Below, one piece after another: positions 39,394 through 47,537 of a DNA stretch of 64,000 nucleotides. The notes below the pieces were generated by a model. The model saw nothing but the letters and a program-made list of their open reading frames with translations. It had not been told where the DNA came from and did not search any database. A program made the position numbers and the translations under genes. Positions within the stretch are counted from its first letter, which is position 1, and each line of letters starts with the position of its first letter. Source of the stretch: Bdellovibrio sp. BCCA (GTDB lineage: Bacteria > Bdellovibrionota > Bdellovibrionia > Bdellovibrionales > Bdellovibrionaceae); assembly GCF_037996825.1 (NCBI RefSeq), contig NZ_JBBNAC010000001.1, positions 186,001-250,000 on the forward strand, in the 5' to 3' direction.

Positions 39394-39470
39394 GGGGGGC
39401 TAGCTTAGTTGGTTAAAGCACGGTGCTCATAACACTGGGATCGGGGGTTCAAGTCCCTCGCCCCCTACCA
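39394..39470 (+). tRNA. tRNA with CAU anticodon, probably tRNA-Met
   Basis: 77 nt including an encoded CCA. Acceptor GGGGGGC pairs with GCCCCCT; D stem GCTT/AAGC; anticodon stem CGGTG/CACTG around loop CTCATAA with anticodon CAT at 39428-39430; T stem GGGGG/CCCTC around TTCAAGT. CAU tRNAs can be elongator Met, initiator Met or Ile2 (lysidine-modified). A G1-U72 pair argues against the initiator, which has a mismatch there. Proteobacterial elongator Met has a very similar T arm. The 3' end is the attachment site of the following element. Confidence 0.96.
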
Positions 39471-39474
39471 TTTT
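39463..39474. other. attL core of the integrative element (tRNA 3' end)
   Basis: CCCTACCATTTT here is repeated exactly at 47526-47537, 8063 bp away. The surrounding 23 nt (T loop to CCA) match at 16 of 23 positions, as expected for a tRNA-targeted integration in which the tRNA remains whole. Confidence 0.75.
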
Positions 39475-39800
39475 CCGCTGTACTAAATTCGATCTGAAGC
39501 GAATCAATCAAAAGAAAAATCAAAACAATAATTTAGTAGGAGCAACGTATACTTGCAGCCACTCGGCCAAATCATTCGACATCATCGGAAATAATTCGAG
39601 TTGTAAGAAGTGTGTTAGTAAGCGCTGTTGGATTTTTAAAATTCTAACAGGATGTCTGATGTGTGAGTGTGGCGTCGAAAAAAAGTGACCCCCCGGGGGT
39701 CTTCTTTTTGTTTCGGGAGGGGGTACACCCCCCAAAAACTTTCAAATATGGGACCCGTTTTTAAAGGTCCCTTTTCTAACCGGGATAAAAATTTCTGATA
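39475..39800. other. non-coding segment with three GC-rich hairpins
   Basis: This 326-bp gap shows no supported gene. It holds a near-perfect palindrome GACCCCC-C-GGGGGTC (39687-39701), a GGGGG-TACAC-CCCCC hairpin (39719-39733) and GGGACC/GGTCCC (39750-39771) followed by TTTTC. These could be terminators of converging transcripts or structural parts of the attachment region. Confidence 0.55.
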
Positions 39801-40259
39801 TTACTTTGCGGATCGTTTATCAAGGATTTCTAGTGCAGGTCCACCAGTAGAAACTAGATCTTTAATGATCTCATAAGTGTTAACTGGCGGAAGTAGTAGT
39901 AGCATATGATTATTAGAAAAATAGTAATTAACTTTTTCTCTAATGAATGGGTAAAGCAAGGCAAGCATATTTGGCAGCAGAGGAACTTGATTAAGATCAG
40001 TAAGTGGATTTACCAAGGGATTAGATAAATCAATATCTGCCATAATTTCAATTACACAGCCAGCAAGAGGAGAATCTCCTTCTTTTAAATGAGAGGAGAT
40101 CGACATTCCAAACAGCAATTTAATTTTATTATCGGATTCAACTACAAGTGCGATGCGGAAAGCCTGATTATACTCAGCATCTTTTCCGGGATCTTTTATA
40201 TAGATGCCCTCAATTCGAGGAAAATATAATCTTTGTAGAGTGAAACTGTTATTTGTCAT
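39801..40259 (-). CDS. SecB-like chaperone of a TAC module
   Basis: 152 residues with the SecB fold pattern: beta strands FTLQRLYFPRIEGIYIKD, NQAFRIALVVESDNKIKLLFGMSIS, then the helix and ending PNMLALLYPFIREKVNYYF and LLLLPPVNTYEII. SecB proteins are tetrameric chaperones with a bottom-hydrophobic groove. Its start overlaps the antitoxin stop (TAATG). In toxin-antitoxin-chaperone systems the chaperone protects the unstable antitoxin by binding its C-terminal addiction segment (ChAD). Position and coupling, not sequence alone, indicate a dedicated TAC chaperone rather than the house export SecB. Confidence 0.82.
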   Translation of the reverse strand: MTNNSFTLQRLYFPRIEGIYIKDPGKDAEYNQAFRIALVVESDNKIKLLFGMSISSHLKEGDSPLAGCVIEIMADIDLSNPLVNPLTDLNQVPLLPNMLALLYPFIREKVNYYFSNNHMLLLLPPVNTYEIIKDLVSTGGPALEILDKRSAK

Positions 40260-40888
40260 TATGCTGCCAGTGCGTAGTCAGAACCCGCTTGGGGCAGAGT
40301 AGTCTCATTACTTCCGCCGCCAATAAGCTTCTTGATGGGTTGAAATTCTTTGGTGTGTGCAGTTGTGCTATGATCTGGAAAGTTTCGGGTGTTCGTAATA
40401 GTGGGTTGTCTATATCTCCACTCCAGTCCAAATTTATCGCAGAGAAGCTCATAGTCTTCTACTTCAAACTTGAATTTCTTCTCGTGCAATTTCTGAATAA
40501 ACTCATAATTTTGTCTGCTAAAAATTGAAAGTCTTAGAAGAAGATCATAGGCATCACTAATTGGTGAGTAACCCTTTTCCCACTTCGTAAAAGCTTTTTC
40601 ATTTACATTCAAAAAATGAGCAGCGCTTGATCTCGTTGGGAAATCTAAAGCAGTGCGAATATTTTCAATTAGTTTGGCATTCAAGCGATGTCTCGAGAGA
40701 GACGCGACTAGATTGCTAACACGCTGTTCTTCAGCGTAAGGAATCCACGAGTGTGCACACTCAGTATTCACGCAGTGATTAACATTCACATCTAAGACAA
40801 TTTGGTTGCCAGAAGTATCCGTCGTATAGCTATCGTATTTTTCAGATCGGACCTCAACAGCGGAACCACACATTGGGCACTTAGACAT
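40259..40888 (-). CDS. MqsA-like antitoxin with C-terminal extension
   Basis: 209 residues. The N-terminal zinc-ribbon half carries CPMC (4-7) and CVNTEC (39-44), close to the YgiT/MqsA pattern but with CX4C in place of CX2C. The HTH (about 75-120, with RSSAAHFLNVNEKAFTKWEKGYSP) is the DNA-binding part. Ordinary MqsA is about 130 aa; here 60-70 residues follow (from about 140), poor in structure and rich in Thr, Gln and Asn. This would be the chaperone-addiction region of a TAC antitoxin. RBS GAGGT sits before the ATG. Overlaps the upstream 147-aa gene by 8 bp. Confidence 0.82.
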   Translation of the reverse strand: MSKCPMCGSAVEVRSEKYDSYTTDTSGNQIVLDVNVNHCVNTECAHSWIPYAEEQRVSNLVASLSRHRLNAKLIENIRTALDFPTRSSAAHFLNVNEKAFTKWEKGYSPISDAYDLLLRLSIFSRQNYEFIQKLHEKKFKFEVEDYELLCDKFGLEWRYRQPTITNTRNFPDHSTTAHTKEFQPIKKLIGGGSNETTLPQAGSDYALAA

Positions 40889-41324
40889 ACTTTACCTCTA
40901 TTGTTTGTGTAGCTTCATGATAGTTAACTGCAACGTGCTTGACGTTCTTAGGTTGTTTTAACAAAGTGGCGCCATCCTTTATCTGCACTTTGAAGTATCT
41001 TACATGAGCAACATCTTTAATGACCACAGGGTACTCGACCGTAAGGTTCTGGGTCTGTTCCAAATGAGTCTTCCATGCTCGTCCATGTTCTTTGAGCTGA
41101 TCAGCCGCAGTTTGCAGCACGTCCCACTTGCCCGTTTTATCTTTACTAAAGCAAGACATCGCCCGTGCACTCATCGGTGCTACCAATGAGTCTCCACCAT
41201 TGCATACGCAATAGTTCATCAGCTCAATTAGGTCTTTGATTAGATCCTTATCTGTGATCTCTTGCGCCCCACCTGATGGGGTCCACTGATCAAATATAGG
41301 TTTCCAATCAACACCAGAACTCAA
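40881..41324 (-). CDS. unknown 147-aa protein, candidate toxin of the TAC module
   Basis: Starts at TTG (41324) with AGGGG six bases upstream; no earlier in-frame ATG is sensible. The N-terminal half is helical (DKDLIKDLIELMNYC, TAADQLKEHGRAWKTHLEQ); the C-terminal half is a strand series (VEYPVVIKDVAHVRYFKVQIKDGATL, KHVAVNYHEATQTIEVKYV). It is not MqsR-like (98 aa, different motifs), nor recognisably HigB, RelE or HEPN. Its place as first gene of a coupled antitoxin-chaperone operon is exactly where TAC toxins stand, so a toxin role is inferred by position alone. Confidence 0.6.
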   Translation of the reverse strand: MSSGVDWKPIFDQWTPSGGAQEITDKDLIKDLIELMNYCVCNGGDSLVAPMSARAMSCFSKDKTGKWDVLQTAADQLKEHGRAWKTHLEQTQNLTVEYPVVIKDVAHVRYFKVQIKDGATLLKQPKNVKHVAVNYHEATQTIEVKYV

Positions 41325-41325
41325 A

Positions 41326-41341
41326 TTAACCCCTTAGGCTT
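41326..41341. promoter_or_regulatory. imperfect palindrome before the TAC operon
   Basis: TAACCC-CTTA-GGCTTA, one mismatch, directly ahead of the TTG start at 41324. It could be an autoregulatory operator for the antitoxin; the first gene's ribosome-binding sequence lies inside it. Confidence 0.35.
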
Positions 41342-41518
41342 AAAAGTGCAATATTGAACTTTAACACTTGGACTTTGCGCCGTAAACCCTATATTTATTT
41401 CTAAAAGGGATTTCTTACTGTCTGATAATGAGACACACAGTGATTCAAATAAATTAAATCTAATTTGAGCAAACAACAATATGTGTTGTTTTTTTAGACT
41501 CCTGTCTAGGTGATCCGG

Positions 41519-41533
41519 CGCGTAATTTACGCG
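41519..41533. promoter_or_regulatory. CGCGTAA/TTACGCG palindrome before the small terminase gene
   Basis: Perfect 7-bp arms around one central T. The same motif occurs as CGCGTAAAA at 43227 and TTTTACGCG at 43581, ahead of the primase gene. Suggests one regulator acting on both packaging and replication genes (inference). Confidence 0.45.
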
Positions 41534-41559
41534 AGCAATTTTCCTGATATTAACTAGTT

Positions 41560-42063
41560 ATGGGCGAAGCAGAGGGGCGGCTTATTAATCAATTTCCATA
41601 TGAAGTGCACCAGGTGCGCAGTCCGAATGGTGACTTAGTTTGGGTTCAAAAAGGCATTAACCCCGACAACATTTTTGGGGATAAGCGTCGTAGTGATTGG
41701 CCTTTCTCGCAGATCATCGCGGATCTAATTTGCCAAAAGATTATGGAAGGAGAATCACTCTCTGCTATTTGTAAGCAGGAGGGCTTTCCTTCATATAGTG
41801 TTGTTTGCCGCTGGCGTAACGAGCAGCCTCGTTTTAAAGATGACCTAGAACAAGCCTATAAAGATAGAGCCGAATACTATCTCGAGAAGGTCCTTGAGAT
41901 TGCTGGAGCTATAGAACCCAACGAGAGTGCTCGTAAGGCCCGCATCAAACTTGATGCATATAAATGGTGTGCTGGTATCGCCGCACCAGAAGAGAAACCT
42001 TCAAGGCAGCAAGGCCCACTACTTGAGATTGTGGTGTCTACTGCTGATTCCAATTCGATTTAG
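41560..42063 (+). CDS. Sf6-like phage terminase small subunit
   Basis: 167 residues with the small-terminase pattern: HTH segment MEGESLSAICKQEGFPSYSVVCRWRNEQPRFKDDLEQA, then RAEYYLEKVLEIAGA and ARKARIKLDAYKWCAGIAAPEE, corresponding to the Sf6/terminase-small-subunit consensus (SLxxICxxxGFPSxSTVxRW ... DARKWxAxKLxP). Small terminase recognises phage DNA for packaging; the large-subunit ATPase/nuclease is absent here. An orphan small terminase inside a satellite can redirect the helper phage to package the satellite (known for SaPIs). No clear Shine-Dalgarno before the ATG. Overlaps the XRE gene end by 4 bp. Confidence 0.83.
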   Translation: MGEAEGRLINQFPYEVHQVRSPNGDLVWVQKGINPDNIFGDKRRSDWPFSQIIADLICQKIMEGESLSAICKQEGFPSYSVVCRWRNEQPRFKDDLEQAYKDRAEYYLEKVLEIAGAIEPNESARKARIKLDAYKWCAGIAAPEEKPSRQQGPLLEIVVSTADSNSI

Positions 42064-42410
42064 GATTTCTTACCCTTATTTATTCTCACACATTGAGACA
42101 CGATCTTAATGATTCGATCCTGATCATCTTTGGATAGAGGGCGGATCATTTGTGATAGCTGAGCAGCAACTTCTTTATGCTTTCCAGTGCCAGTATTTTC
42201 CTCAAATAGATCGGCTGGAGAAACGTTCAGAACATCGGAGACTGCGGTGATTACTTCAAAGGAAGGGCTGCGTGAACCGCTTTCGACATAAGAAAGGTAC
42301 TGCGCAGTTATCCCCATCTTTTCCGATAGCTCTTCTTGGGTTAAGCCGGAGGCTTTTCGCAATCGCTTGATGTTGTTTCCAAACCATACTAGGTATTTGT
42401 TCTGATCCAT
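42060..42410 (-). CDS. XRE family transcriptional regulator (Cro/CI type)
   Basis: 116 residues from ATG 42410 (an upstream TTG at 42422 is in frame; GGGGGC lies just before the ATG). HTH at about 10-60: FGNNIKRLRKASGLTQEELSEKMG then ITAQYLSYVESGSRSPSFEVI. The C-terminal 45 residues are helical and charged, without a peptidase-type cleavage domain, so induction by RecA-type autocleavage is not expected. It faces away from the secreted-protein gene at 42536 across a palindrome; probably the element's master repressor. Confidence 0.85.
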   Translation of the reverse strand: MDQNKYLVWFGNNIKRLRKASGLTQEELSEKMGITAQYLSYVESGSRSPSFEVITAVSDVLNVSPADLFEENTGTGKHKEVAAQLSQMIRPLSKDDQDRIIKIVSQCVRINKGKKS

Positions 42411-42466
42411 AAACGCCCCCAATAGAAAGTTTATGGAACTTAGACGGTTAATTTAATCGACATACA

Positions 42467-42483
42467 GGCTATTAAATATAGCC
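42467..42483. promoter_or_regulatory. 17-bp palindrome, candidate operator of the XRE regulator
   Basis: GGCTAT-TAAAT-ATAGCC, perfect 6-bp arms, in the divergent region between the XRE repressor and the secreted-protein gene, about 55 bp from the regulator start. Confidence 0.55.
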
Positions 42484-42535
42484 ATTAAATCTAAACTAGA
42501 CTCAAGCTAATGACATCTATACCGAGATGTCTAAT

Positions 42536-43132
42536 ATGAAAAATCTTATACTTACGACAGCAATCATTTTGGTATCGGCATTCACTGCAAATGCAGCTAA
42601 CTCGTCTGGAAAAGACGTTGATGTGGGAAGAGACTTAGCTCTCTCGATATACAAGTCTCACGCAGACAATAAAGACTTTTTAAGCTGCCTAGAAACTGTG
42701 GCATTCTTTCCCATTCGGTCATCTGCCGTTGGTATAGATATTGATGATGATCTTATGAGTACTATAGTTCTTGCGTGTGACTCCGCCGCAACCGAAGGAG
42801 TTCTTTCTGCTCAAGTGGCGGAGAGTCTTGAGGGCGCAGTAAAAAAGAAGACTCTATCAATTGATGGGTTTTTGATTATTATTCACTCGCTCTATTCATC
42901 GACTTTGAGATCTCATGCGAATGCTTTTGCCGTATCCGAAACTTGTGAAGGCCTTAGCAATAAGAAGCAAGTAGACATCTCTACGATAATGAAGAAGCAG
43001 AACTCTAAAGCTTTGGCTAAATTCTTGAATACGGACATTAAAACAGTTCTTAAGGAAGCTCACGTCAGCTCCTCATATCAGCCGCTACTAAAGAAAAGGT
43101 ACGAAGAAATTCAGAAAGAAATTTCTAAGTAG
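42536..43132 (+). CDS. secreted protein encoded on the element
   Basis: 198 residues with a signal peptide (MKNLILTTAIILVSAFTANAA). The mature region is helical with three cysteines (LSCLETV, LACDSAA, SETCEGL), and the ending is basic and charged. No family recognised. It is divergent from the XRE repressor, so it should be controlled by it. In satellites, exported proteins near the repressor can act in superinfection exclusion or lysogenic conversion, but nothing in this sequence proves either. An ATG at 42527 is also in frame. Confidence 0.75.
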   Translation: MKNLILTTAIILVSAFTANAANSSGKDVDVGRDLALSIYKSHADNKDFLSCLETVAFFPIRSSAVGIDIDDDLMSTIVLACDSAATEGVLSAQVAESLEGAVKKKTLSIDGFLIIIHSLYSSTLRSHANAFAVSETCEGLSNKKQVDISTIMKKQNSKALAKFLNTDIKTVLKEAHVSSSYQPLLKKRYEEIQKEISK

Positions 43133-43164
43133 TAATTTTCAATTCGCAATACCAGAAGCAGGCC

Positions 43165-43218
43165 CCTATAGACTTACCTTCCCTATGTCTATAGGCGCGT
43201 ATAGGTATAGCTATAGAC
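43165..43218. repeat. iteron-like CTATAGAC repeats
   Basis: CCTATAGAC at 43165-43173 and its exact reverse complement GTCTATAGG at 43187-43195, then a third CTATAGAC at 43211-43218 next to the palindrome TATAGCTATA. Confidence 0.7.
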
Positions 43219-43288
43219 ATGGACGACGCGTAAAAGAACACAAAATAAAATTATCAAATCACTTCAGTCACTTAGCGAGAAGCGAACC

Positions 43289-43515
43289 TCACGCCTCAAA
43301 TTCCAGATTGACCGATTGTCAGAGCAACAATAAAAAGATCGCAGGGTAGCAGGAAACTGTTCTCCTCGCTGGGTAAGAAATCTTCTTACAGTTCCAGTCA
43401 TAAAAAGAGGCGTGATACATTAGGCGAGAGCCGAGATTCTAAGTGCAGGGAAGCGTTAGCCGAGAGCCATGAGGCGAGCTGCTAGATCTATGATTCAATA
43501 AAATTCGAGGCGTGA
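43289..43515. repeat. GAGGCGTGA repeats
   Basis: Three copies: inverted at 43289-43297, direct at 43407-43415 and 43507-43515. The two direct copies are exactly 100 bp apart. Confidence 0.6.
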
Positions 43516-43620
43516 GTTGATCTCATCGTTCGCTGCATTTCGTAGCGACGTTGTTTTAACTTTTTAATTTGCGTATATAGTTTTACGCGCCGGGCATTGC
43601 TGTGTCCGAAAGGCTCTCAA

Positions 43621-45936
43621 ATGAAAAAGAAGTTGAACTCCAAAGTCACTTCTCGCTTGCAACGACAAGCAGTCACAAAGAAACCCAATACATTTCCAAT
43701 CGACCAGAATGAGGTATGGTCATTTGTCAGTTTGCTAACTGGCTCTGTACGATCAAAGAATATCTTCACCGCTATTAAGAAATCTTCGATGGCAAAACCT
43801 CAAATCAAAACGATTGTTGGTTCTATCGAAGAAGCTTATCAGTCTCTAGTTGCCTGGAATAGAGACGGGTTTGATATTTTCATGGCGGTCAATGAGTGTG
43901 ATGGGGATAGAAAGAATGAAAATGTAAAAGCAATTCGTGCGGTATTCTTCGACAACGATAGTGAGAATACTGTGGAGCCACCACTCGCCCCAACTTTTCA
44001 AGTGAAGTCTGGACGTGGCGGCCACGGCTACTTCCTTGTGAATGATATGCAAGTCGATGAGTTCACGAAGATTCAATCAGCCATTGCCAAATCTTTAGAA
44101 ACAGATCCAACAGTAAAAGATCCAGCACGTTTGATGCGCGTCCCTGGGTTTGCTCATGTTAAAGATCCAAGTAACCCCAAGCCAGTTAGCATCTTTGCAA
44201 GGACTGACTTGGTTTACACAACGGAGCAAATCAAACAAGCCTTCCATGTCGTTGATCAATATGACGGATCTGCCAAATCTAAGAGCTCTCAGGGCGTGGC
44301 AAGTATCACTGATCGCAAGTTTAAAAGCTGGGCAAAAGATCTACCTACGGATGAAGGTAGCGCTAACCCCATGGGTGGCAGAAACAATACTGCACTCAAC
44401 CTGGTGAGGGAGGGGCTTGCATTCGGCATGAAGAGATCAGTAATTGCAGGAGCTCTCGAGGACTACTGTCTACGTTCGGGTCTATCAGAGTCTGAAGTTG
44501 ATGGAATGATTGCGCGTGAGGAAGAGGTTCATAAGAAGAAAATGTTCCAGCCGTACTTCCTAAATCAGAATGATAAGAAGCCCTCAGTTTCAGAATTGAG
44601 TAGTCTATTCATTCAGCATGAGAATTTGACGCCGGATCATATCCGCTTCTGGCGTGGCGAATTCTTTATTTATGATGGATCAAAGTATCAACAAATTAAG
44701 ATGAGTGATCTAAGAGCTAGGGTTGTATCATTCCTTACTACTAGTGTTTACAGTGATAAGTTCCGTCTCCCTTGGGTTGACGAAGCCGTGACTGGTTTGA
44801 CAGGCCTCGGTCATTTGTCTCCGAATATTGAGGCGGGAGCAGACATTCTTGAGCCCAACAAAAAGAAGAATCTTATCTTCCTAAAGAACTGCGTATTGAA
44901 CCTTGACGAATCGAATGCCTGGAAAGTTGAGCAGTTGCCCCATGACCCCCGTTACTTCTCGCAAGTTGCGCTGCCCTACTGCTATGAGCCCAATGCTGAA
45001 TGCAATTCATTCCTAAAGACTCTTAGTGAAATCCTTCCGGATAAAGATACAAGAGACTTCCTACAGGAGTGGTTCGGCTACAATCTGATTCACGATACGA
45101 GCCAAGGAAAGTTTCTTGTTCTTCTTGGTGAAGGTGCTAATGGCAAGACGGTCGTCTTGAGTGTGTTGACTGCGTTGATTGGTAAGCAGAACGTATCTGC
45201 GATTCCTCTTGAGAACTTCACAGCTACAAGAACATTTCCAATCGCCGTAACCATTGGAAAGCTTGCGAATGTTGTCGATGAGATGGGTCAGCTAAAGGGA
45301 GTGGAAGCAACTCTCAAACAATTTGTCAGTGGATCGCTGATGAATGTTGAACGCAAAGGAAAGGATGGCGTGGAGCAGAAGCCAACCGCGCGTCTCACCT
45401 TTGCAACGAACACGCTGCCAACATTCTATGACCGATCTGATGGATTGTGGCGCCGTATGATTGTCATCCCAATGCAAGTACAGATCCTTGATGAGTCGAA
45501 GCAGAATAAAAACCTGTCACGCGTAGAGTACTGGGAAAGATCAGAGGAGCTTGCTGGTATTTTGAATTGGGCTATCGCTGGATTGCAAAGACTCATGGGA
45601 CGTGGGTACTTTGTTGAACCAAAATGTGCCTCTGAATTTAAGGCAGGCTTCCGTCAGGAATCAGATCATGTATCTTCTTTCATCGAAGAGCACCTGACTG
45701 AGAATGCAAAAGGTGAAGTCGGTGCGACGACACTCTACTCTAACTATACTTCTTACTCAAAATTCAACGGACACCCAGTGGTAACTAGTGCCGCATTTGC
45801 AGCGGCGATCCGTAAAGCATTTCCAAAAGCTATCAAATCCGATCAGCCAAAGGTAATGCGAGATAAAAGGCGCGAGCGCGTATGGAGTGGGCTCAGTCTT
45901 GAAAGCTTCGGAGGAACAGAGGGAGGGGCGTGGTAA
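43621..45936 (+). CDS. AEP primase - SF3 helicase replication protein
   Basis: 771 residues from the ATG at 43621 (AAAGG upstream). N-terminal RepB-type archaeo-eukaryotic primase: AVFFDNDSE (metal Asp pair), VKSGRGGHGYFLV, then DPARLMRVPGFAHVKDP. Middle: D5_N-like region with the helix-rich spacer and LPHDPRYFSQVALPYCYEP. C-terminal SF3 helicase: Walker A LLGEGANGKTVVL, Walker B NVVDEMGQLKG, sensor-1 ATNTLPTFYDRSDGLWRR. This is the P4 alpha/poxvirus D5 build, enough to initiate replication of a small element. Ends one base before the next ATG. Confidence 0.93.
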   Translation: MKKKLNSKVTSRLQRQAVTKKPNTFPIDQNEVWSFVSLLTGSVRSKNIFTAIKKSSMAKPQIKTIVGSIEEAYQSLVAWNRDGFDIFMAVNECDGDRKNENVKAIRAVFFDNDSENTVEPPLAPTFQVKSGRGGHGYFLVNDMQVDEFTKIQSAIAKSLETDPTVKDPARLMRVPGFAHVKDPSNPKPVSIFARTDLVYTTEQIKQAFHVVDQYDGSAKSKSSQGVASITDRKFKSWAKDLPTDEGSANPMGGRNNTALNLVREGLAFGMKRSVIAGALEDYCLRSGLSESEVDGMIAREEEVHKKKMFQPYFLNQNDKKPSVSELSSLFIQHENLTPDHIRFWRGEFFIYDGSKYQQIKMSDLRARVVSFLTTSVYSDKFRLPWVDEAVTGLTGLGHLSPNIEAGADILEPNKKKNLIFLKNCVLNLDESNAWKVEQLPHDPRYFSQVALPYCYEPNAECNSFLKTLSEILPDKDTRDFLQEWFGYNLIHDTSQGKFLVLLGEGANGKTVVLSVLTALIGKQNVSAIPLENFTATRTFPIAVTIGKLANVVDEMGQLKGVEATLKQFVSGSLMNVERKGKDGVEQKPTARLTFATNTLPTFYDRSDGLWRRMIVIPMQVQILDESKQNKNLSRVEYWERSEELAGILNWAIAGLQRLMGRGYFVEPKCASEFKAGFRQESDHVSSFIEEHLTENAKGEVGATTLYSNYTSYSKFNGHPVVTSAAFAAAIRKAFPKAIKSDQPKVMRDKRRERVWSGLSLESFGGTEGGAW

Positions 45937-46376
45937 TGGCACAGGCTGCACAACCCTTTATTACTCCTCGGGTAAAATTGAATCAGAGAAAAGAAAGAAA
46001 ATATAAAAGAGAGAATAGCCCCTGTGCAGTTGTGCGACAGGGGAACATCGCTTCAGATTCTGATGATGCGAAAAAGTTCTCAATTAAAAAAGTCGTCATC
46101 TCATCTGTTGACAACGATCAGAAGTTCCAGCATTTAGGCAGACCTAAAAACTCTCCCTCGCTAGAGAGTGAAAGTTCTTTGAAAACTGAAGAGGCTGAGT
46201 GGCTGACAAGTAAAGAGGCTGCTGACTATCTCCGTATCTCTGAGGGCACACTCAGGAATATGGCCAGTAACGGAAGGGTACCCTATGTAAAGTTAGGGAG
46301 ATCGAACCGATATTCACGGAGTCAGTTGAATCAGTTGCTCCTTTCTAACAAGAGAGGAGTACTCAATGGGTATTAA
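45936..46376 (+). CDS. helix-turn-helix excisionase-like protein
   Basis: 146 residues. The C-terminal third has a MerR/excisionase-type (HTH_17) motif: WLTSKEAADYLRISEGTLRNMASNGRVPYVKLGRSNRYSR. The N-terminal 90 residues are basic and low in structure. The start overlaps the primase stop by one base, and the end overlaps integrase by 11 bp. Excisionase-type proteins direct integrase towards excision; a role in DNA binding at the origin is possible too. Confidence 0.82.
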   Translation: MAQAAQPFITPRVKLNQRKERKYKRENSPCAVVRQGNIASDSDDAKKFSIKKVVISSVDNDQKFQHLGRPKNSPSLESESSLKTEEAEWLTSKEAADYLRISEGTLRNMASNGRVPYVKLGRSNRYSRSQLNQLLLSNKRGVLNGY

Positions 46377-47463
46377 GAAAGATCCCAAGACAGATCTTTA
46401 TATTGTCAGCTATGCAAAACGACATCCGATTACACGCAAACCAGTTGGTCTAAAGAGAATTAACGTCAAGACTCTGGCTGAAGCAAAACGTATTCAAGCT
46501 GAGTTGATCGTATCGGTAAATGATAAAATCAAAGAGAAGGTTATGCCTACTTGGGGTACCTTTCTCACTCAATACTTTGAGAGTATGAAGCTGTCAGGAC
46601 TAATGAACTCGACGATATATAATCGAGAGAAAGTACTGCGTTGTCATACGCTGCCCACATGGGGAGAAAAGTATATTGACGAAATTACTACCGAGGAGAT
46701 TCACAAACTGCTGAATGCTAGGCTTGGCAACAATGCTGAGGCTCACAAGAAATTCTTTATCAAGTGCGTTCGCGGAGTATTCCAATATGCACTTGAGCAA
46801 GGGATTCTTGTAAGGAACCCCACGCCGCTATTGAAATTCAAAATCGCTGATAAGATTCACGCGGTATTGAATGAGGAACAGATTGTTCTTCTACTTCGTA
46901 AAGCTCAAGAGTTGAACTGGCCGTGGTATCCACACTATGCAGTAGCGCTGTTCACAGGTATGAGAAACGGAGAGATCTACGCGTTAACCTGGGACAAGGT
47001 GAATCTTGATAAGCGACAGATCTTAGTGAACGTGGCTTGGAATAGCAAGAATGGCTACAAGTCCACGAAGTCCGGTGATGATCGTATTATCGAGATCCCC
47101 ACTCCATTGTTGCCTACGCTTAGACAGCTAAGGCTACAATCGGATGGGAGTGATTTTGTCCTGCCTAGATTAAATAAGTGGGACAAAGGCGATCAGGCCC
47201 GTGAGCTAAGATTTCTTCTTGCTTCATTGGGTTTACCACAGATTCGCTTTCATGATCTGCGAGCGTCCTGGGCTACGCTATTGCTGAGTAAAGGGGTAGC
47301 CCCTAGCAAAGTTATGGCAATGGGCGGATGGAAGGATATGGACACCATGATGATCTATATGCGCAAGGCTGGTATTGATATTAAGAACTCAACCAGTGTC
47401 CTTGATAATATGGAAACACACGGTGTCACCACTGGTAAGGTAGTCAAATTTAAGCCAGTGTAG
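46366..47463 (+). CDS. int: tyrosine integrase
   Basis: 365 residues. N-terminal arm-binding region (SYAKRHPITRKPVGLKRINVKTLAEAKR), SAM-like core-binding domain (about 60-145), and catalytic domain with Arg in LFTGMRNGEIYALTWD, His-X-X-Arg in FHDLRASWATLLLSKG, the second conserved His replaced by Trp/Lys region GGWKDMDTMMIY, and the tyrosine in MMIYMRKAG. Drives integration at the tRNA 3' end; the gene points to attR, 63 bp away. Last gene of the primase-HTH-integrase operon. Confidence 0.95.
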   Translation: MGIKKDPKTDLYIVSYAKRHPITRKPVGLKRINVKTLAEAKRIQAELIVSVNDKIKEKVMPTWGTFLTQYFESMKLSGLMNSTIYNREKVLRCHTLPTWGEKYIDEITTEEIHKLLNARLGNNAEAHKKFFIKCVRGVFQYALEQGILVRNPTPLLKFKIADKIHAVLNEEQIVLLLRKAQELNWPWYPHYAVALFTGMRNGEIYALTWDKVNLDKRQILVNVAWNSKNGYKSTKSGDDRIIEIPTPLLPTLRQLRLQSDGSDFVLPRLNKWDKGDQARELRFLLASLGLPQIRFHDLRASWATLLLSKGVAPSKVMAMGGWKDMDTMMIYMRKAGIDIKNSTSVLDNMETHGVTTGKVVKFKPV

Positions 47464-47492
47464 GAAGTGGTCGGAATGGGAGTAAAGGGCTA

Positions 47493-47515
47493 TTGAAATC
47501 ATTAAACAATTTCAA
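47493..47515. repeat. inverted repeat between int and attR
   Basis: TTGAAAT (47493) and ATTTCAA (47509) with a 9-nt spacer, directly before the attR core; may be integrase arm sites or an int terminator. Confidence 0.4.
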
Positions 47516-47525
47516 CCTCCGCACT

Positions 47526-47537
47526 CCCTACCATTTT
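47526..47537. other. attR core of the integrative element
   Basis: CCCTACCATTTT identical to the tRNA 3' end at 39463-39474. Upstream the sequence still resembles the tRNA T arm (TTCAA at 47511), with mismatches. Confidence 0.72.

Follow-up and report, generated by a model that had tools for sequence, protein, structure and literature searches.

A 64,000-nucleotide stretch of the genome of Bdellovibrio sp. BCCA (contig NZ_JBBNAC010000001.1; hereafter the window) carries a gene that a first-pass annotation read as an Sf6-like small terminase (TerS) without a large terminase (TerL), kept by selection and acting in packaging in the manner of the SaPI satellites. What role, if any, does such a lone packaging subunit have in a bacterial genome?

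Sequence searches and structure prediction confirm the product as an Sf6-type small terminase. It matches the Pfam family Sf6_terminase (PF20901) over residues 50-144 with 83.7 bits (cut-off 27; E = 1.1e-23) and PHROG 1482, "terminase small subunit", with 82.5 bits (4.4e-23), while a sequence search against solved structures returns Sf6 gp1 (4dzj, 3hef, 4dyc) at E of about 1e-14 (best 3.6e-14). The residues singled out earlier as conserved, GESLSAICKQEGFPS at 64-78 and DAYKW at 132-136, are indeed intact. In an AlphaFold2 model of the monomer, computed from 49 aligned sequences, residues 51-141 form a confident core of a helix-turn-helix (HTH) and two long helices, with pLDDT of 81-96 across most of it. 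Six PDB matches were obtained with Foldseek at E≤0.001, all of them Sf6 gp1 chains with a probability of 1.00. The global TM-score is modest (0.40 by query, 0.50-0.53 by target), probably owing to the uncertain ends of the model. A plain HTH regulator is ruled out as the identity of the product by the oligomerisation helices and by confident PDB matches to Sf6 gp1 only. Like Sf6 gp1 (Lederbergvirus Sf6; PDB 3hef, 4dyc, 4dzj), to which it is about 33%-37% identical over residues 50-144, the island protein has an HTH and a helical oligomerisation core. R48 of Sf6 gp1, mutated in 4dzp, aligns with R84 of the island TerS, whereas K59 aligns with D95. The island protein also differs in having an extra N-terminal extension of 49 residues and in lacking the PxxYG/C-terminal barrel segment and an adjoining TerL.

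The orphan state of the gene held up as well. When 75 TerL proteins were compared with the window by tblastn, no match was found at E≤0.01, and four TerL models (PF17289, phrog_2, PF03237, and PF04466) gave no TerL match in the whole host genome (4.01 Mb, completeness 100). Several models were applied because phrog_2 is insensitive to some TerL, having missed one at a locus of the comparison set (L012). All four produced matches in several control genomes; they do not cover every TerL, and the case for absence from the host genome is strong but not absolute. Of 80 viral contigs that carry an Sf6-type TerS, 78 extend for 1.2 kb or more downstream of it, and in 71 of these a TerL-sized gene follows TerS directly on its 3′ side. 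In the Bdellovibrionota, PF20901 matches occur in 6 of 148 genomes and are mostly orphans: TerL adjoins TerS in a single one (G017), where both belong to a genuine prophage that also has portal and tail genes. No TerL lies beside TerS in the other five (the window genome, G036, G081, G146, and G092), a count that is approximate, as the G092 and G081 genes come from short contigs and that of G081 has one weak, partial TerL match (L011; E = 0.002).

The TerS gene is part of an element at about 39471-47537, inserted in the 3′ end of a tRNA-Met gene (Table 1). The two att copies are identical at 21 of 27 positions and lie 8,063 bp (8.06 kb) apart; none of 300 shuffles gave a repeat as good. The tRNA, the sole Rfam match, has counterparts in all 24 genomes of the genus. 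A search of the genus genomes for an exact empty site gave no clean one, and the tRNA-Met neighborhood is variable. Integrases 60%-69% identical to that of the island are present in seven genomes (G002, G009, G012, G014, G022, G024, and G025). The motif TTCAACCTCCGCACTCCCTACCA recurs behind the 67%-69% identical ones in four of them (G002, G009, G022, and G024) and in a weaker form in G012 and G030, and this recurrence in other islands supports 47511-47537 as attR. Five of the six islands with the motif were seen at a tRNA-Met gene; in the sixth, that of G024, the left end lay beyond the stretch covered.

The att sites enclose nine ORFs (≥100 aa), none of which matches a capsid, portal, tail, or lysis gene in Pfam or PHROG. 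The primase-helicase additionally matches TIGR01613 (1.7e-51, above its cut-off). A gap of 26 nt separates the palindrome CGCGTAATTTACGCG (CGCGTAA/TTTACGCG) from the terS start codon. For the triplicate GAGGCGTGA before the primase gene, only 2 of 500 shuffles reached such a count for any 9-mer.

Table 1. Features of the TerS-bearing element and its integration site (positions in the window)
Feature	Position	Strand	Evidence and remarks
Host tRNA-Met (CAT), integration target	39394..39470	+	ARAGORN; Rfam RF00005
attL, 3′ end of tRNA-Met, core CCCTACCATTTT	39448..39474	+	27-nt direct repeat with 47511-47537
Probable SecB-like chaperone, 152 aa, third operon gene	39801..40259	-	Foldseek of a low-confidence model
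MqsA-family antitoxin with HTH, 209 aa	40259..40888	-	PF15731 3.2e-8; TIGR03830 7.5e-14, below its cut-off
Putative toxin, 147 aa, first gene of operon	40881..41324	-	No usable family match; conserved with the other two in G048
15-bp palindrome CGCGTAATTTACGCG, candidate shared operator	41519..41533		Upstream of terS; half-sites at 43227 and 43582 upstream of primase
Orphan Sf6-type small terminase (TerS)	41560..42063	+	167 aa, ATG start
TerS residues 1-49, N-terminal extension	41560..41706	+	Absent from phage TerS, conserved in G036 satellite TerS
TerS residues 50-142, HTH and two long helices (predicted oligomerisation core)	41707..41985	+	pLDDT; PF20901 match 50-144
XRE/Cro-CI-type repressor, 120 aa	42060..42422	-	HTH_3 2.9e-18
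201-aa protein, apparent signal peptide, no assigned function	42527..43132	+	ORF list, Pfam, PHROG
Non-coding 467 nt, candidate iteron origin (or packaging site)	43130..43596		GAGGCGTGA ×3, CTATAGAC ×3
P4-family primase-helicase (DUF5906, D5), 779 aa	43597..45936	+	PF19263 1.7e-17; PHROG 864 4.7e-73
AlpA/excisionase-type regulator (HTH_17)	45930..46376	+	PF12728 9.5e-14; TIGR01764
Tyrosine integrase	46366..47463	+	PF00589 4.3e-19
attR, motif TTCAACCTCCGCACTCCCTACCA	47511..47537	+	Direct repeat; same motif behind related integrases elsewhere

This gene content is the core of PICI/PICMI-type satellites and suggests a PICI/PICMI-like phage satellite. Of the features given for PICIs (PMC6092414), the element shows the lack of structural and lysis genes and the presence of an integrase, xis/AlpA, and a primase-replicase module; terS, too, has a published role in PICIs (PMC6092414). 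At 8.06 kb it is smaller than the about 15 kb given there as typical, and the two triplicate repeats at 43130-43596 make up a candidate iteron origin. PICI att sites are described as specific ones that prophages do not use (PMC6092414); in the six islands with a related integrase and the att motif, some of which were partly covered, the sequence read contains no structural genes. With Gram-negative PICIs such as EcCICFT073 the element shares the integrase, AlpA, the primase-replicase, a putative packaging-specificity gene, putative phage-resistance cargo, and the absence of structural genes. It differs from them in its size, its XRE repressor, its integration site, its Bdellovibrio host, and in carrying an Sf6-type TerS in place of Rpp. 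The PICMI of Vibrionaceae are likewise small and have the same three mandatory families (integrase PF00589, AlpA PF12728, and DUF5906 primase PF19263), but they insert beside fis, and the paper that defines them reports no terminase gene (PMC10803314). Its detection model calls for all three genes together and accepts a primase of either the DUF5906 or the DUF3987 type. Since our element sits in tRNA-Met and carries TerS, as well as an operon resembling a toxin-antitoxin-chaperone module, the definition of the PICMI does not cover it. Nor, judged by its genes, is it a SaPI of Staphylococcus: its regulator, primase, and TerS architecture are different, and Pfam and PHROG gave no match to the Stl repressor, Ppi, or cpm capsid-remodelling genes. 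SaPI TerS directs packaging (PMC6739421), and the likeness to SaPIs would consist in the use, proposed here, of a satellite TerS without its own TerL.

The nearest relative of the island TerS, with 55% identity across residues 7-138, was found in a Bdellovibrio sp. CG10 MAG (G036; PEZR01000140.1). When the genome and viral collections were scanned with single proteins and with two sequences, no other close relative emerged; an alignment of eight sequences was too diverse for use as a scan query. A tree built from the core groups the two proteins together with a support of 0.98. The G036 gene has an integrase fragment, a DUF3987 primase, an XRE regulator, and a TIR-like 336-aa protein as neighbors, from which we take its surroundings to be another satellite-like element. 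The two elements have in common an orphan TerS extended in the same way at its N terminus and shortened at its C terminus, set in a satellite-like neighborhood; they differ in the primase type, the TIR-like cargo, and the gene orientation, the G036 contig being incomplete. The 336-aa protein (L009, 6113-7123, minus strand) resembles TIR domains or nucleoside 2-deoxyribosyltransferases in its C-terminal part.

Comparison with G036 yields a dN of 0.40 with saturated dS for the whole of TerS, an overall purifying pattern at the sequence level. The most striking stretch is NPDNIFGDKRRSDWPFSQI (residues 34-52, the end of the extension), which is identical at 19 of 19 residues, more conserved than the HTH, and whose 19 codons differ by 12 synonymous and 0 non-synonymous changes. 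The claim that selection has kept the gene was thus well founded. This bears on the view that TerS is a functionless prophage leftover drifting in a genomic island, which we consider highly improbable. Islands often harbor orphan phage genes, and tblastn found no relative of the island TerS in related tRNA-Met islands with an intact int-alpA pair, so TerS does not belong to the core of these islands. A drifting remnant would, however, hardly be expected to keep a full-length ORF, purifying selection, and a rearranged architecture common to two satellites.

The rearrangement affects both ends of the protein. The extension of about 49 residues is common to the island and G036 proteins and absent from phage TerS. 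A P-x-x-Y-G motif at the entrance of the C-terminal stalk, a common trait outside the curated definition of the PF20901 family, is present in 74 of 80 viral TerS and missing in both satellite proteins, and G036 TerS ends 13 residues past the equivalent of W136. P22 TerS deprived of its C-terminal tail no longer binds DNA or associates with TerL (PMC9611059), and lambda TerS binds TerL by its C-terminal part (PMC6739421). By analogy with P22, the motif would lie next to the TerL-binding region, and the C-terminal part that contacts TerL in P22 and lambda should have been replaced in the island protein. Because this region is gone and the extension holds the most conserved part of the protein, we think that it is now the N terminus that contacts TerL or some other packaging partner. 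That the pair represents a satellite-specific TerS of reversed architecture in a family of Bdellovibrionaceae satellites, with the DNA-binding ring kept and a conserved N-terminal docking segment replacing the C-terminal TerL contact, is a bolder proposal that we rate as quite unlikely; if true, packaging by the phages of a predator would be pirated via a new recruitment route.

A segment of the extension (41653-41706) shares the pattern GINPDNIF...DWP with an HsdM methylase of Runella (L033, 4777-7356). The resemblance is probably due to chance, and homology was rejected, as the match had been selected by that very pattern and the TerS N terminus gives no Pfam signal.

The small terminase selects the DNA to be packaged. 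A TerS without a large-terminase motor or capsid genes suggests hitch-hiking in the particles of another phage, and we regard redirection of packaging by the satellite TerS as likely. In the scheme that we favor, the integrase and AlpA would insert and excise the element at tRNA-Met, and the DUF5906 primase-helicase would replicate it once a helper tailed phage enters. TerS would form a ring via its two long helices and bind a site in the satellite DNA through its HTH, bringing the helper TerL to that DNA, which would then be packed into helper capsids. In favor of redirection we count the att pair seen across islands, the integrase, AlpA, and DUF5906 primase, the lack of structural and lysis genes, the orphan TerS of the G036 element, the mostly orphan state of PF20901 genes in Bdellovibrionota, and purifying selection. 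Against it we count the lost PxxYG region, the lack of a TerL match in the host genome, and the related islands without a TerS relative. The complete reading, a phage satellite whose TerS acts as its own packaging-specificity subunit in a SaPI-like manner with the TerL contact moved to the N terminus, seems to us plausible, if somewhat short of probable. The SaPI-like interpretation of the first-pass annotation is therefore kept in part: TerS is intact, selected, and orphan, and the integrated element in which it resides is built like a satellite. The gene content (AlpA, DUF5906 primase) is nearer to Gram-negative PICI/PICMI than to SaPI, and the C-terminal TerL contact, on the P22 and lambda analogy, appears to have been replaced.

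Loss of the C-terminal contact region from both satellite proteins, with the HTH and oligomerisation helices kept, also fits a serious rival. The island TerS might join the Sf6-type TerS of the helper in a mixed ring, supplying DNA specificity and blocking helper packaging, with TerL held by the C termini of the helper subunits. A PICI packaging protein can join the helper TerS rather than TerL: Rpp of E. coli PICIs acts via such a heterocomplex (PMC6739421). Rpp, however, pairs through a lambda-type winged HTH and not an Sf6-type ring, and a mixed ring leaves the conserved N-terminal block unexplained. We consider it unlikely.

Under the redirection scheme, the minus-strand operon next to terS would be resident cargo, probably anti-phage. 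The order of its three genes (41324-39801) is kept in G048 (L098, 7041-8767) at 42%-51% identity. The 152-aa protein has no HMM match; a poor single-sequence model of it (pLDDT 40) gave SecB for all of its top nine Foldseek matches (E = 0.14-0.38). Neither the SecB-like gene nor the putative toxin gene has a plasmid or Pfam match. Toxin-antitoxin-chaperone modules with SecB-like chaperones are known (PMC5105189), and CmdTAC senses a phage capsid protein (PMC11618068). From sequence and model, the operon is possibly an anti-phage module of this kind, which we treat as a lead only.

Defence-type cargo adjoins TerS both here and in G036 and, together with the loss of the TerL-contact end, could mean that TerS has no part in satellite packaging: it might be a trans-dominant decoy that jams helper packaging, or it might regulate the element by binding DNA. 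We find this distinctly improbable, as the full TerS core and not merely the HTH is retained and the element already has XRE and AlpA regulators.

The best-known phage satellites are those of Vibrio, enterobacteria, and Gram-positive cocci, and the literature that we searched describes none in predatory Bdellovibrionota. The island and G036 proteins reveal which half of a small terminase is retained in a satellite and which half is dispensable, and as a natural variant the pair makes the question of TerS-TerL communication testable.

TerS-TerL pairs were seen in two islands with related integrases, one at the tRNA-Met gene of G002 (L027, 11677-13567) and one in G024 (L078, 8538-10431). Their TerL are 93% identical, and the parts that were read contain no capsid genes. 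More generally, tRNA-Met is a hotspot of int-alpA islands with varied cargo (L079, L081, L083, and L089), an example being the G009 island with an apparent DNA methylase and a GHKL-type ATPase.
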